A stretch of DNA of 64,000 nucleotides. Origin: Candidatus Peribacteria bacterium (GTDB lineage: Bacteria; Patescibacteria; JAEDAM01; Absconditabacterales; Absconditicoccaceae). A model generated the notes under the pieces. It was not told the DNA's origin. It searched no databases and saw nothing but the letters and a program-made list of their open reading frames with translations. The DNA lies in contig JAISKI010000034.1 in the NCBI GenBank assembly GCA_031261265.1, positions 9,111-73,110 on the forward strand. The letters are read 5' to 3'. Shown here one piece after another: positions 5,472-57,933 of the stretch. How positions within the stretch are numbered: the first letter of the stretch is position 1; the number at the start of each line of letters is the position of its first letter. Both the position numbers and the translations under genes were made by a program.

Positions 5472-5623
5472 AACAACCCCCTCTTCCGTTCTCCTAAACT
5501 TAGCTCGTCGTCCTCCCTCTCCCCCTGACAGGGGAGTAAACTCTGTGTTCTCTTCTCATTGTCTCCTATATAGTTTTCCTCCCTGTCAGGGGAGGTGCCC
5601 GATAGGGCGGAGGGGTTGTTGAA
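5472..5623. repeat. Intergenic copy of the dispersed palindromic repeat
   Basis: This 152-bp unit starts AACAACCCCCTC and ends GAGGGGTTGTTG, so its ends are inverted repeats. Inside are two palindromic cores, CCCCTGACAGGGG on the left and CCTCCCTGTCAGGGGAGG on the right, and the left arm contains TTAGCTCGTCGTCC. The same arms recur inside recG, around the DUF559 gene and upstream of glyA. It is GC-rich in an AT-rich neighbourhood and fills most of the 330-bp gap between the permease and lepA. It has the form of a MITE-like element. Confidence 0.85.
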
Positions 5624-5640
5624 AAATATAGACAGAAAAA

Positions 5641-5666
5641 AGATAGCCCATAAGTTTAGGCTATCT
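5641..5666 (+). terminator. Hairpin upstream of lepA
   Basis: AGATAGCC and GGCTATCT pair around a ten-base loop and are followed by TGTT. This may be a weak terminator; the T run is poor. Confidence 0.45.
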
Positions 5667-5757
5667 TGTTAGTTTCCTGCCAGAAGAGACTCCCCCTTGA
5701 AAAACCAAATCTTTTCCATACCTTAAACATACGTTTTTATTCAAGCCTTTCCTTGAA

Positions 5758-7731
5758 ATGCAGATTTCTCGTGCCTTAATCTTCGATTCCGTCTTCGACC
5801 CCTACAAGGGCGTTTTAGCATACGTAAAAGTCGTAGATGGCTCTTTCAAAGCAGGGGAGCAGGTACACTTGATCCATTCACAAACTTCCTTTGTCCCAAC
5901 CGAAGTCGGATATTTTACTCCCGAATACCAAGCAGATAAAACCTTATCAGAAGGACAAATCTGATACATTACCACAGGGCAAAAATCTGTTCGTGATGTA
6001 AAGATTGGAGACACTATACTATGAGGAGATTTCAGAAGATTAAACCAGAAGATTCCAGAAGATTCTAATAGTAAGGCTACAGGTAATTGACTAGGAAAAG
6101 AAGAAAAAGAGAAAATGAGTAAAATTACCTATGATATTATTTGAGCATGTATGGCGGTTCATAGAGAATTTTGAGGGTGATTGAGAGAAGAAGTTTATAA
6201 GAGAGCGGTAAAACTACAGCTAATTAAAAAATGATATTCTGTTATTGAAGAGGCAAAAATAAGTATCCGTTATGAAGATAATAAAATTTGAAATGGTTTT
6301 ATAGATTTACTAATAAATGATGAAATTGTTGTTGAGTTCAAATCTAAAGGATTTTTCAACAAGAATGATTTTAAACAGATAAGAACTTATCTTCAATTTT
6401 GAGATAAACAAATAGGATTATTGGTAGATTTTGGTTGAAATTCCCTTACTTACAAAAGATTAGAAAAAGATTATATAAAAGAAAAAACTTGAAACCAACA
6501 AAATTCTCCTATACAATCCCCCCTACAATCTTCTGAAATCTTCAGGCAAAATCTTCTGAAATCCTACTTAATTCCAGGCTTCAAAAAAGTCACCCCTTAC
6601 GTCTATGCAGGAGTCTATCCCATTGATTCCACCGAATACGATAAACTCAAAGATTCCCTCGAAAAACTCTCCCTCAATGACTCGGCCGTAGAATACGAAA
6701 TGGAAGATAGCGGATCGCTCGGTCTCGGTTTCCGTTGCGGATTTTTGGGTATGCTCCATATGGATATCATCAAAGAACGCCTACGAAGAGAATATAAACT
6801 CGATACCATCTTCACGATTCCGACCGTGATGTACCTGATCAAGTCCAAAAATCTCACCATCCCCGCCATAAAAACAGGGAATAATATCAAAAATCTGATT
6901 TCTACAGGACTCTACGAAACGGTTTTAAAACAGGAAGGAATAACGTTGACTAGCGAACAAAAATTCAGAATCGAAGCTAGCCAAGGAATCAGCTCTGAAC
7001 TAAACTTTATCATTGACTCCCCTGACAAGGGGAGAGGGAGCGAAGCGGAAGAGGGGTTCGTGCGGGAACTCCTCAAACCGCGAGTCGTGGTAAAATCAGG
7101 ATCAGAGATGATTGAACAGGGGATGATCGAAAAAATTCGAGAACCCGTTGCCGAAGTGGAAATCGTTTGACCTAAAGAATATGCGGGAAATATTATGGCA
7201 CTCGCCCAAGAATACCGCGGAAATCTTAAATCCATGGAATACCTCGATGAAACCCGCGTAGTTCGACATTATTTGCTTCCTATGGGTGAGATTATCATAG
7301 ATTTTTACGACCGCTTAAAATCTGCGACCAAAGGATATGCTACGATGAATTATGATTTCAAAGGTTATGAATCCGCTGACCTCGTGAAATTGGATATTTT
7401 CATCAATAATGAAAAGGTAGAAGCATTGACACGAGTTGTTCATCGTGATAAAGCCTACAGCCTCGGTCGTGATGCAGTAGAAAAATTAAAAACGCTGATT
7501 CCTAGACAACTTTTCCCTATCCCTATTCAAGCAGGACTTGGTACCAAAATGATTGCTCGTGAAACCATCTCTGCGATGAAAAAAGATGTGCTGGCGAAGT
7601 GTTATGGAGGAGACGTTTCCAGAAAGAGAAAACTACTCCAAAAACAGAAAGAAGGAAAAAAGAGAATGAAGGCTATCGGGAATGTGGAAGTGCCAACTTC
7701 GGTATTTATTGATATGATCAGTAGGGGATAA
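5758..7731 (+). CDS. lepA: LepA/EF4 homologue without a GTPase domain, carrying an inserted GxxExxY domain
   Basis: LepA (EF4) is a ribosome-associated GTPase of about 600 residues. This 657-aa frame starts at domain II (LIFDSVFDPYKGVL) and has no G1-G5 motifs; the upstream frame meets a TAG at 5644. Domain II ends at KIGDTIL. Residues about 91-268 are foreign, then LepA resumes at PGFKKVTPYVYAG and runs to the C-terminal CYGGDVSRKRKLL region. The insert holds a GxxExxY-type PD-(D/E)XK-like domain: ITYDIIGACMAVHREFGGGL, FIDLLI, IVVEFKSKG, TYLQFG. A palindromic repeat is translated near residue 420 (7017-7059). The insert has 11 TGA glycines; the LepA parts have very few. It may be a pseudogene, or half of a split LepA. 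Confidence 0.85.
6028..6064 (+). repeat. Left inverted repeat of the lepA insertion
   Basis: It begins GATTTCAGAAGATT and contains three spaced copies of AGAAGATT. Its reverse complement matches 6527-6563 at 32 of 37 positions. Confidence 0.85.
6527..6563 (-). repeat. Right inverted repeat of the lepA insertion
   Basis: It ends AATCTTCTGAAATC on the plus strand and is the inverted partner of 6028-6064. It marks the return to LepA sequence. Confidence 0.85.
7017..7059 (+). repeat. Palindromic repeat translated inside LepA
   Basis: The hairpin CTCCCCTGACAAGGGGAG is followed by AGGGAGCGAAGCGGAAGAGG and GGTTC, the right-arm layout of the dispersed repeat. It is read as SPDKGRGSEAEEGF between FII and VRELLKP, a stretch with no counterpart in ordinary LepA. 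Confidence 0.8.
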
Positions 7732-55868: not shown

Positions 55869-55996
55869 AATATAGCAGTAAATTAAATAAAATGAATATT
55901 TCCCTATCCCCTCAATATCGCTCCCACACTTTCAAAGCCAGACAATGAGTTTTATAAGACCAATAGGAAAGAGGATGAAAAGATTTTTAGAATTTT

Positions 55997-56674
55997 CTAT
56001 AAAAGAATTACTCAATCAAAAGTGTCTTTAATATACTTTAAATATTCTTCTTCGTTCTGAAATACTCAAGACTTATCGGATTTCTCTTTGTATTTCATTT
56101 GAATAAGTCCTTCAGAAAAGTCTATAAAAAACTGTTTACTTTCATGATTCAGTATAATATAAGAATGGTGTCCTGCGATTGAGCGAATTTCTCCCTGTAG
56201 ACCCAATAATTCATTTGCCAGTTGGAGAAATAGGACAGAGGAACTTCCACAGGTTGCTTGTACAGACAAGTCTACTTTTTTTATATTTTTTAATTCTTCC
56301 CTCGATTTAAGTTTGTTCGTATCAATGGGAGTTCTGGTTAGTGCTGTATAAGCAAGGTTTGAGAATGTTTCTCGAATAGAAGGTAATTTTGTATTAAGTA
56401 CAACGAAATACCAGAGAATTTTGATTTTTTCTTCTGTTGTCGCTTGTTCAGGATTTTGTATTCCGAGTCTTCACCGATATCTTTGGAAGGCATTGGGGTT
56501 GGAAAAGAGTTTATTTCGTTTTTCTTTCCATTGGTTGAGGTGTTCTGCATCTAGTTTTTTAATGCGATGAGATAACACTAAACACTTGTCCTTTACTTGA
56601 ACGAATTGTTCAGGATGTTTACTGTCTGCATGAAAGGAATATCTTCCTTCGTTTCGTTTAGCTGTAAGTGCCAT
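55997..56674 (-). CDS. Hypothetical protein with a possible transglutaminase-like triad
   Basis: The 225-aa frame starts at MALTAKRNEGRY after pheT and ends at TAG through three TGA glycines. The C-terminal half contains CGSSSVLFLQLANELLG, then GHHSYIIL and FFIDF: a Cys, His, Asp order and spacing like transglutaminase or papain-like folds. The homology is only suggestive. The 128-bp gap to the next gene is the largest in the operon. Confidence 0.55.
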
Positions 56675-56715
56675 TGTAAGGGAGATGTTTGTAAAATGTA
56701 TAGTGTTGATAATCA

Positions 56716-57933
56716 TTATCCTCTAAGTTCAGCTCCCACACTTTCAGCCTTTTTAATGGCTTTCTCCATAATCGCACTAATATCTTCGCTACTCATATTC
56801 CCGTCCCCTACAAACTTAATCTTGATAGAAACCGACTTCTTTCCCGCTGGTAAATTCTCGCCTTGATATACATCAAAGACTTCCACCTCCTTAATTTCAG
56901 GGATAGCCTCAATCCTCTTAAAGAGCTCTGAAAAATCTGACTGCTCATCTAGCACAAAACTCAAATCTCTCCACAAAATCTGGTCTTGGATTGTTTCGTA
57001 GGTGTAGGTTCTTTCTCCGAGTTGGCTTTTGATTTCTTCAAGAGTTGTTTGGTTCAGCTCCACGAAGCAAGTGTTTGCATTTTCTGGGATTTTGTGGTCT
57101 TTCAAGATAAGCGGGTGAAAAGAACCAATCAATCAGACTTCTTTTCCTTTGTAGAGGATTTTTCCCTGTTTCTTTGGATGAAAATAAGAAAGCTGAGTGG
57201 CTTCATAGCTGAGTTCTCCGTCAAGTTCTAGTCCGTTCAAGAGCGTTTGAATGATACCTTTCGCTTCCAAAAGCGTATCTTCTTCTCGGGATTTCGTTGC
57301 TTTCTTGTAAAGCAAAATCCCTGTGTGGAACTGCTCGTCCAGATGAGCTTTGGCAAATTCTGGGGCTTCATCATTGTGAGGTTCATTCGTAGTTCGGACT
57401 TTCCCCGTATCAAAGATTTTGAATTCATCAAAGAATTTCGCGTTCTTCGTGGCAATTTGAATGAACTGGTAAATGAAGCTGTCGCGAAGAAGCGGGCATT
57501 CAGGATTGACGGGATTTTGAAGCTCCAACAAACCGTGCCCTCCTTTTGAAGGAGGGGTAGGGGAGGTTCATTGTATATCTTCTGATCCGAATCCCCCCTT
57601 CCCCCCTTTCAGAAAGGGGGTAGTCATCTTTTCGCTGACCCACGGATAGGTTTCGGTTTGCAGACATCTACATCTTTCCACCAGGACTTGTTCCGTGGTT
57701 CTGATATTCTGTACCATACCACTAAACGCCTGATTTTTGATTTCCGTCTTGGCGGGCGTGTTTTTCACATGTTCATATCCTCGGATTCTGGCTACTTCCT
57801 CGGTAATGTCTTCGGGAATATTCATATCTTCGGGACCTCTCCAAATCGGAGCGGTGATCGTGTTTTCGTGGACTTGAAATCCCAGAGCGGTCAGAATTGT
57901 TTTAGCTTTTTCTGGGAAGGTGGTAGTGGTCAT
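56716..57933 (-). CDS. pheT: Phenylalanine-tRNA ligase beta subunit, C-terminal half
   Basis: The 405 residues resume exactly where the N-terminal half at 60985-62334 stops: the end of the B5 domain (FPEKAKTILTALGFQVHEN, IPEDITEEVARIRGYEHV), the beta-core (RDSFIYQFIQIATKNAKFF, FKIFDTGKV) and the C-terminal FDX-ACB anticodon-binding domain (TYETIQDQILWRDLSFVLDE to RG). It has its own ATG (MTTTTFP). About residues 104-132 translate a palindromic repeat (57537-57622). TGA glycines occur at both joins. Probably expressed as a separate polypeptide that assembles with the other half, or the gene is inactive. Confidence 0.88.
57537..57622. repeat. Palindromic repeat translated inside PheT
   Basis: Two palindromes (CCTCCTTTTGAAGGAGG and CCCCCTTTCAGAAAGGGGG) stand in inverted order around a short AT spacer, each followed towards the centre by GGGGTAGGGG or its complement. 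The minus-strand frame reads TTPFLKGGKGGFGSEDIQ-G-TSPTPPSKGGHG without a stop, between WVSEKM and LLELQNP. Confidence 0.85.

Follow-up and report, generated by a model that had tools for sequence, protein, structure and literature searches.

Dispersed repeats in the form of GC-rich palindromes are common among bacteria. As for palindromes inside proteins, the nearest known parallel is that of the Rickettsia palindromic elements (RPEs), which the relevant part of PMC10969869 describes as dispersed palindromic sequences of about 150 bp that lie partly in frame within unrelated genes and are said to carry a conserved peptide. The closest known pair of a repeat and an enzyme, as presented in the corresponding part of PMC3733652, is that of the repetitive extragenic palindromic (REP) sequences and RAYT, in which hairpin units form inverted pairs, a solitary gene is flanked by such units, and the units are dispersed, with REPs within genes also reported. 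We analyzed a stretch of 64,000 nt of Candidatus Peribacteria bacterium (GCA_031261265.1, contig JAISKI010000034.1, positions 9,111-73,110; hereafter, the window). This bacterium belongs to the order Absconditabacterales and reads TGA as glycine (code 25). The window contains a family of GC-rich palindromic repeats, and one copy of the repeat encloses a gene for a nuclease of the DUF559 family (PF04480). We think that the full repeats are probably short, non-autonomous copies of this DUF559-bearing element, and that they have probably been spread by the DUF559 nuclease.

The core of the repeat, CCCCTGACAGGGGAG, had 10 matches with at most 3 mismatches at 6 places in the window, while 0.45 were expected and none of 100 shuffles reached 10; in these counts a near-palindromic match counts on both strands. 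The repeat family in the window is real. Two full short elements are present. Copy A (5472-5620, + strand) is intergenic, between a permease gene and lepA, and copy B (44987-45126, + strand) lies in frame inside recG, the gene being on the - strand. The two copies are identical at 121 of 134 aligned positions, gaps excluded (90%). Both have the outer ends AACAACCCC...GGGGTTGTT, and both run from a variable stretch through an inner hairpin CTCCCCCTGACAGGGGAG (copy B differs by one base) to a spacer richer in AT, which is followed by a second inner hairpin, CCTCCCTGTCAGGGGAGG, and then by a small one before the outer end. When folded as single-stranded DNA, copies A and B were more stable than all 200 shuffles (z -4.7 and -4.4), and so were two of three copies from other genomes (z -3.2 and -6.0). 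Double-sided changes were seen at 6 of the 21 predicted pairs, each in at least one aligned element sequence. At gathering scores, Rfam detected none of the repeats.

A covariance model, R1, was built from 8 full elements, namely copies A and B and the elements aligned with them from the genomes G003 (two), G006, G009, G014 and G017. Copies A and B, both used in building R1, scored 110-111 bits. Among the sites outside the model set, 42055-42174 scored 33.8 bits (E 2e-6) and a half element in lepA 24.3 bits (E 5e-4). The score was weak at Dtd (15.2 bits, E 0.09), and it was 10.0 bits (E 1.9) at PheT and 8.6 bits (E 4.2) at 37296, within a decayed partial left half (37219-37313, + strand) that lies upstream of the likely start of glyA (SHMT) and is not clearly coding. 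The initial annotation had ascribed the same arms to six sites, including a full copy in RecG. The RecG copy is indeed complete; the common arms hold for the sites at 5472 and 44986, hold by half for LepA, are weak for Dtd and for the site at 37216, and do not hold for PheT, where the palindromes are different ones. The list also missed the element at 42055-42629, which is the one with the DUF559 gene inside.

This element, copy C (42055-42629, + strand), consists of inverted arms at 42055-42120 and 42568-42629 that enclose a gene for a DUF559 nuclease of 130 aa (42155-42547, + strand; Pfam match E 1.4e-25). Its left arm is identical to that of copy A at 58 of 66 positions (88%), and its two arms agree with each other at 57 of 58 aligned positions when gaps are allowed, or at 85% over 60 nt ungapped. 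The ends of copies A and B are nearly the same as those of copy C. The two copies are likely short forms of copy C and look like versions with a short spacer instead of the nuclease gene. The terminal inverted repeats common to the short and the gene-bearing forms make the relation, as judged from sequence, like that of a miniature inverted-repeat transposable element (MITE), with copy C as the presumed autonomous form.

In the encoded protein, the residues E30, D60, E71, D73 and H77 are invariant among 23 aligned sequences. Structure prediction (pLDDT 83) gave a fold that matches 3hrl (E 1.9e-7) as well as 3r3p, the catalytic domain of the homing endonuclease I-Bth0305I (E 3e-4), and Vsr itself was a weak match (1vsr, E 0.41). 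By its PF04480 match and its PD-(D/E)XK-type residues the protein appears to be a nuclease of this family, and DNA cleavage is its predicted activity. In the nearest relative, G001, whose RecG is 80% identical to that of the window, the DUF559 gene sits between AACAAACCCCC and GGGGGTTTGT arms. The divergence between the two DUF559 genes (dN 0.17, dS 1.30) shows purifying selection on the nuclease gene. In the window dtd adjoins the DUF559 element, and in G001 the two genes are on separate contigs; a synteny comparison with G001 as a source of an empty site for copy C was ruled out, as the neighbours differ. In another genome (G033, L169), two composite palindromes of about 140 nt, nearly identical and in direct orientation (11539-11675 and 12131-12268), stand on either side of a DUF559 gene.

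In order to clarify how regularly DUF559 genes are flanked by palindromes, we counted GC-rich hairpins within 350 nt of the DUF559 domain among the 30 loci listed for the order, dropping flanks shorter than 200 nt. Domain-based ends replaced stop-to-stop ends of open reading frames (ORFs), because code-25 frames run through the repeats. Hairpins were found upstream of 25 of 29 DUF559 loci, downstream of 18 of 29 and on both sides of 15 of 28. The corresponding values were 3/26, 2/24 and 0/24 for Dtd, 2/30, 8/26 and 0/26 for LepA, and 0/29, 10/28 and 0/27 for PheT. Dtd is the fair control for both sides, because the queries for LepA and PheT were partial, so that most of their upstream flank is coding sequence. 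Hairpin density in the order was 3.71 per kb near DUF559 and 0.18 per kb beyond 700 nt.

The same pairing was seen outside the order. In other orders of the phylum, 27 of the 30 loci listed (from 58 matching genomes) had DUF559 flanked on both sides, with 4.29 hairpins per kb near and 1.39 far, and most of the DUF559 frames there lack TGA. On plasmids of named bacteria, 8 of the 11 DUF559 loci fetched (of 51 matching records) had pyrimidine-arm palindromes on both sides, and 5 of 44 far windows held one; on these GC-rich plasmids only the pyrimidine-arm pattern separates near from far, the general hairpin count being uninformative (far background up to 8.8 per kb). Palindrome-flanked DUF559 genes occur on plasmids of Deinococcus, cyanobacteria (Picosynechococcus) and Alphaproteobacteria (Azospirillum, Sphingomonas). 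The pairing of DUF559 and palindromes is no speciality of code 25. The flanking palindromes were also compared with the rest of the genome in nine genomes with listed palindromes, eight of which have a DUF559 locus. Among these eight, exact copies were present elsewhere in the genome for G131 and G059, exact matches were confined to the flanking copies in four, and two had no strict palindrome in the locus.

The link was also clear at the level of whole genomes. A scan with R1, following the profile search proposed in the initial annotation, gave matches in 24 of the 49 genomes of the order, and a DUF559 relative is present in 27 of the 49. Both were found in 22 genomes, DUF559 without R1 in 5, R1 without DUF559 in 2, and neither in 20 (p 4e-7). 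The repeats are mostly remote from the gene, since 85 of the 93 R1 sites have no DUF559 match within 1 kb. In 239 genomes drawn from the phylum we counted a strict palindrome, CCTCYCC-N2-10-GGRGAGG. It was present in 42 of the 43 genomes with a strong DUF559 match (43 of the 58 with any match) and in 39 of the 196 others (p 6e-23), with a mean of 18.1 palindromes per genome in the former and 1.0 in the latter. When all 58 matching genomes were counted, the table in the same order as above was 44/14/37/144 (p 3e-14). The palindromes outnumber the gene, 779 against 104 matches, and 32 of the 43 genomes have more than 2 per match.

One alternative, which we regard as unlikely, is that the palindromes are REP-like sequences moved in trans by a Y1 (IS200/RAYT) transposase and that the DUF559 genes are passengers between REP units. 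Y1 matches were found in 15 of the 49 order genomes and 114 of the 239 phylum genomes, Y1 is associated with R1 in the order (p 0.005), and hairpins lie on both sides of 12 of the 16 Y1 loci with full flanks (26 of 30 Y1 loci named; loci shorter than 3250 nt left out). However, 12 of the 24 R1-positive genomes have no Y1 match, although incomplete genomes could hide some Y1 genes. Within the DUF559-bearing genomes of the order, Y1 has no effect on R1 (p 1.0), while the link of DUF559 with R1 persists among genomes without Y1 (11/3/1/19, p 1e-5). In the 239 genomes, the association of Y1 with the palindrome had a p value of 0.055, and of 0.37 among those without strong DUF559; in contrast, the palindrome was present in 16 of 16 DUF559 genomes lacking a Y1 match (p 7e-11). 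Y1/RAYT was rejected as the mover, its link being weaker than that of DUF559 in both the order and the phylum tables.

We also doubt that DUF559 is only a cargo or neighbour, and that the palindromes act as terminators or as hot spots of insertion or recombination where various things land. The orientation of the module around the DUF559 gene varies between groups, and the direct repeats around the DUF559 gene of G033 would fit such a landing place. However, GxxExxY, another small nuclease gene, is not flanked in this way: hairpins were on both sides of 1 of 28 loci, with 0.82 per kb near and 0.96 far (loci shorter than 3290 nt left out; 26 DUF559, 15 Y1 and 28 GxxExxY loci of 30 kept). Moreover, most genomes without DUF559 hold few palindromes, and in both the window and G001 the DUF559 gene is located within the element, in its spacer. 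That GxxExxY might be a partner of the palindromes on a par with DUF559 was ruled out, since GxxExxY genes are unflanked and show no link apart from DUF559; their association with the strict palindrome in the 239 genomes (p 6e-4) vanished among genomes without DUF559 (p 0.38), and their association with R1 in the order had a p value of 0.25.

We return to the spread of the repeats by the DUF559 nuclease. The enzyme may act like a homing endonuclease that nicks or cuts at or near its own palindrome, perhaps when this is extruded as a hairpin or cruciform, and the palindromic unit may then be copied to new places by repair or replication. Insertions would survive between genes, or in a loop of a protein if the frame stays open, and in-frame copies such as that in RecG would be translated as extra surface loops, as predicted. 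What lies beyond a nuclease gene between its palindromes in this scheme is our inference.

Several observations, in addition to the hairpins around Y1 loci, weigh against this reading. Among the loci compared, none showed an insertion event or offered a clean empty site. The records of Azospirillum oryzae and Azospirillum sp. B510 each match only one flank of the A. lipoferum DUF559 locus; at the corresponding site, Sinorhizobium meliloti keeps what reads as a DUF559 remnant, and Shinella lacks about 590 bp but has only 75-81% identity outside. No direct repeats are visible adjoining copies A, B and C, and hence no target-site duplication can be seen. The orientation of the module is opposite in the two settings, with the arms outermost in the window and the hairpins outermost in other orders. 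The third foreign copy that was folded, from G003, had a z of -1.3 and was matched or beaten by 21 of 200 shuffles. Of the DUF559 genomes of the order, 5 of 27 have no R1 match. In the phylum, besides the 39 of 196 genomes with a strict palindrome and no strong DUF559 match, 8 of the 39 genomes with at least 5 palindromes lack such a match, one of them having 76 copies and a weak match; gene loss or incomplete bins could account for palindrome-rich genomes of this kind. Furthermore, when the two traits were followed along a LepA tree covering 30 of the 49 order genomes, just 2 branches showed a change in both, a result short of significance (P 0.11), and shared ancestry could lie behind much of the DUF559-R1 link in the order. 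The 239 genomes are related too, and their statistics were computed without a tree.

We next consider the repeats inside proteins. All four (in LepA, Dtd, RecG and PheT) lie within open frames under code 25, as the initial annotation had read them. In recG (43334-45526, - strand) the insert covers approximately residues 161-209 of the ORF translated from 45604. The segment is absent from 7 of 7 relatives, which are 32-41 residues shorter by matched spans, and it lies after the wedge domain and ahead of the part that aligns with residue 250 of 1gm5. In a structure model of RecG (730 aa; pLDDT 73.5, pTM 0.55), residues 133-188 have a pLDDT below 50 and no secondary structure, and the insert is thus predicted to be disordered. 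In dtd (41530-42033) a degenerate half element (41606-41645, + strand) lies in frame and consists of a hairpin, CGAAGCCG and GGAGGTT. This segment is absent from 25 of 26 relatives; G002 has a shorter segment at the same loop, whose DNA is likewise a half element (CCCCCTTATGAAGGGG...GCGAAGC...AGGGGGTT). Dtd of G027 and G028 (L084, L087) contains in-frame palindrome-derived segments, PSPPAPLPKGEG and PSPPAPLPTTSLGEG, at another loop. In the C-terminal pheT ORF (56716-57933, - strand), a pair of different palindromes (57537-57621, - strand) lies in frame and encodes about 21-24 residues absent from all 29 relatives whose sequence reaches across the site (one of the 30 aligned is truncated); these palindromes belong to another family than the repeat of RecG and copy A.

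The case of LepA is weak. The half element (7016-7062, + strand; CTCCCCTGACAAGGGGAG...GAGGGGTT), in frame in the ORF 5758-7731, adds about 8-10 residues, and G007 has a loop that is nearly as long and holds no palindrome. Equally long unrelated loops in relatives were what the initial annotation itself had named as speaking against insertion, so that its comparison with relatives bears it out for RecG, PheT and Dtd and fails at LepA. The analogy with RPEs that it drew is accordingly apt for the loop segments of the first three proteins, is weak for LepA, and leaves the picture incomplete. Its remark that the segments contain no TAA or TAG has no weight: under code 25 the 8 full elements have 19 open frames out of 48, and simple base shuffles have about 18, so that the openness does not exceed chance. 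A coding design of the repeat like that of RPEs was ruled out on the same count.

The code nevertheless matters for the host proteins. Both the RecG and the PheT segments hold TGA, and therefore both proteins would stop under the standard code; to this extent the emphasis that had been placed on code 25 is justified, even though palindrome-flanked DUF559 is also found in other orders and on plasmids. TGA is aligned to glycine in 30 of 30 relatives at LepA 69, LepA 471 and PheT 267, and in 24 of 26 and 25 of 26 relatives at two Dtd sites; the agreement is lower at LepA 89 (7/30) and at two RecG sites (3/7 and 4/7). Reading TGA as glycine would widen the tolerance for insertions in genes, because only 9 of the 48 frames of the same 8 elements are open under code 11. 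Full copies within genes look exceptional all the same. For 19 of the R1 loci fetched from other genomes (28 of the 93 sites), no open frame of at least 80 aa extends across the repeat with a margin of 15 aa on both sides; the other 9 are spanned by a putative open frame, one of which exceeds 300 aa and rests on a weak 30-bit match.

It is very improbable that the segments are ordinary variation in loop length in GC-rich, low-complexity sequence. The G007 loop and the chance level of openness would agree with such variation, but RecG holds a complete copy with intact outer ends, and the segments of RecG, Dtd and PheT, all in frame, are derived from palindromes and are missing from nearly all relatives examined; palindromes in Dtd of three other genomes, two of them at another loop, also speak against it. 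Finally, repeats can misjoin in general, but no result points to a misjoin, and an assembly artefact or chimera is hardly credible when none of the four segments breaks the host frame and known domains of the host proteins surround them, and when the split of pheT recurs in G001 and G003 and the separate LepA GTPase frame in other members.

Other features of the window touch on these proteins. LepA of the window (5758-7731) is without the GTPase domain, which is a separate frame in some members of the order (L103, L093) and part of a whole gene in others (relatives L091-L120). Within this LepA, a GxxExxY (PF13366) PD-(D/E)XK nuclease domain lies in frame at 6028-6563 (+ strand), bounded by AATCTTCTGAAATC-type repeats. 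LepA of G032 (L093) has a GxxExxY domain at the same loop, and the other 29 of 30 relatives are without it. In other orders, GxxExxY domains lie in frame inside LepA before the DTPGH motif in three genomes (L264, L265, L267) and inside RecG before SATPIPR in one (L274). LepA and RecG are the same two host proteins as in the window. Host domains are present on both sides of these insertions; the placement is like that of inteins, but the Pfam hits include no intein domain. The pheT gene is split within the B5 domain (56716-57933 and 60985-62334, - strand), and its halves are separated by genes for a YhcG/DUF1016 nuclease, a protein of the Beta-lactamase2 family and a Fic protein; G001 and G003 likewise have the C-terminal half as a frame of its own. 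At 31455-33190, small open frames are enclosed by tandem TTGTTCGGAAAGGG repeats and by inverted arms of 65 nt, and the whole may be another repeat-bounded element; Pfam gave no match for the two frames tested there (31628-32242 and 32675-33130). A DUF3800-IX RNA of Rfam lies at 46993-47058 (- strand) with 43.7 bits, above the gathering score.

The new part of our result is the DUF559 partner of the palindromes; our searches, limited to open-access papers in PMC, listed no paper linking DUF559 to palindromes or inverted repeats. We put forward tentatively, leaning slightly against it at present, the wider proposal that DUF559 is the missing mobility enzyme of GC-rich palindromes (CCTCTCC...GGAGAGG and their kin) in several phyla, forming a transposase-free mobile class that also writes loops into RecG, Dtd, PheT and other core proteins. 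Some palindromes of this kind have no known mobility enzyme, as the pertinent part of PMC3733652 states for the CGTC REPs. Should DUF559 prove to be one, an unexplained class of repeats and a domain of unknown function would be solved together, and a common kind of DNA repeat without an owner would gain one. The spreading of DNA without a transposase would then become testable in culturable hosts (Deinococcus, Azospirillum and cyanobacteria), in which the element is carried on plasmids. The window would also be an example of selfish DNA that still adds loops to core proteins today, in an organism where the reassignment of a stop codon lets more frames be read through.

The element resembles several known systems in part. 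The predicted fold of DUF559 is like that of free-standing Vsr-like homing endonucleases (I-Bth0305I, 3r3p). Enzymes of that group are associated with introns or inteins and have a single homing site, whereas no intron or intein was seen here and the palindromes occupy many sites. VsrA of Caulobacter likewise has a DUF559 domain in a Vsr-like nuclease, with a proposed role in mismatch repair, but no palindromes are mentioned for it in the part of PMC12907096 that describes it. As in MITEs, the terminal inverted repeats of the short form resemble those of a longer, gene-bearing form; unlike MITEs, the element has no transposase and no visible target-site duplication. With REP/RAYT it has in common hairpin units that form inverted pairs, a flanked solitary gene and dispersed copies, but its partner is not a Y1 HUH enzyme; it is a PD-(D/E)XK nuclease with the Vsr/homing fold. 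Like RPEs, the repeat of the window is about 150 bp long, palindromic and in frame in unrelated proteins, RecG having a full copy, and Dtd, PheT and (weakly) LepA having half copies or palindromes of another kind. Unlike RPEs, for which the relevant part of PMC10969869 names no partner enzyme, it has nearly the same ends as the element around a DUF559 nuclease gene. In addition, its eight full copies show no preferred frame, the comparison of peptides resting on the one full copy within a gene of the window, and its host uses code 25.

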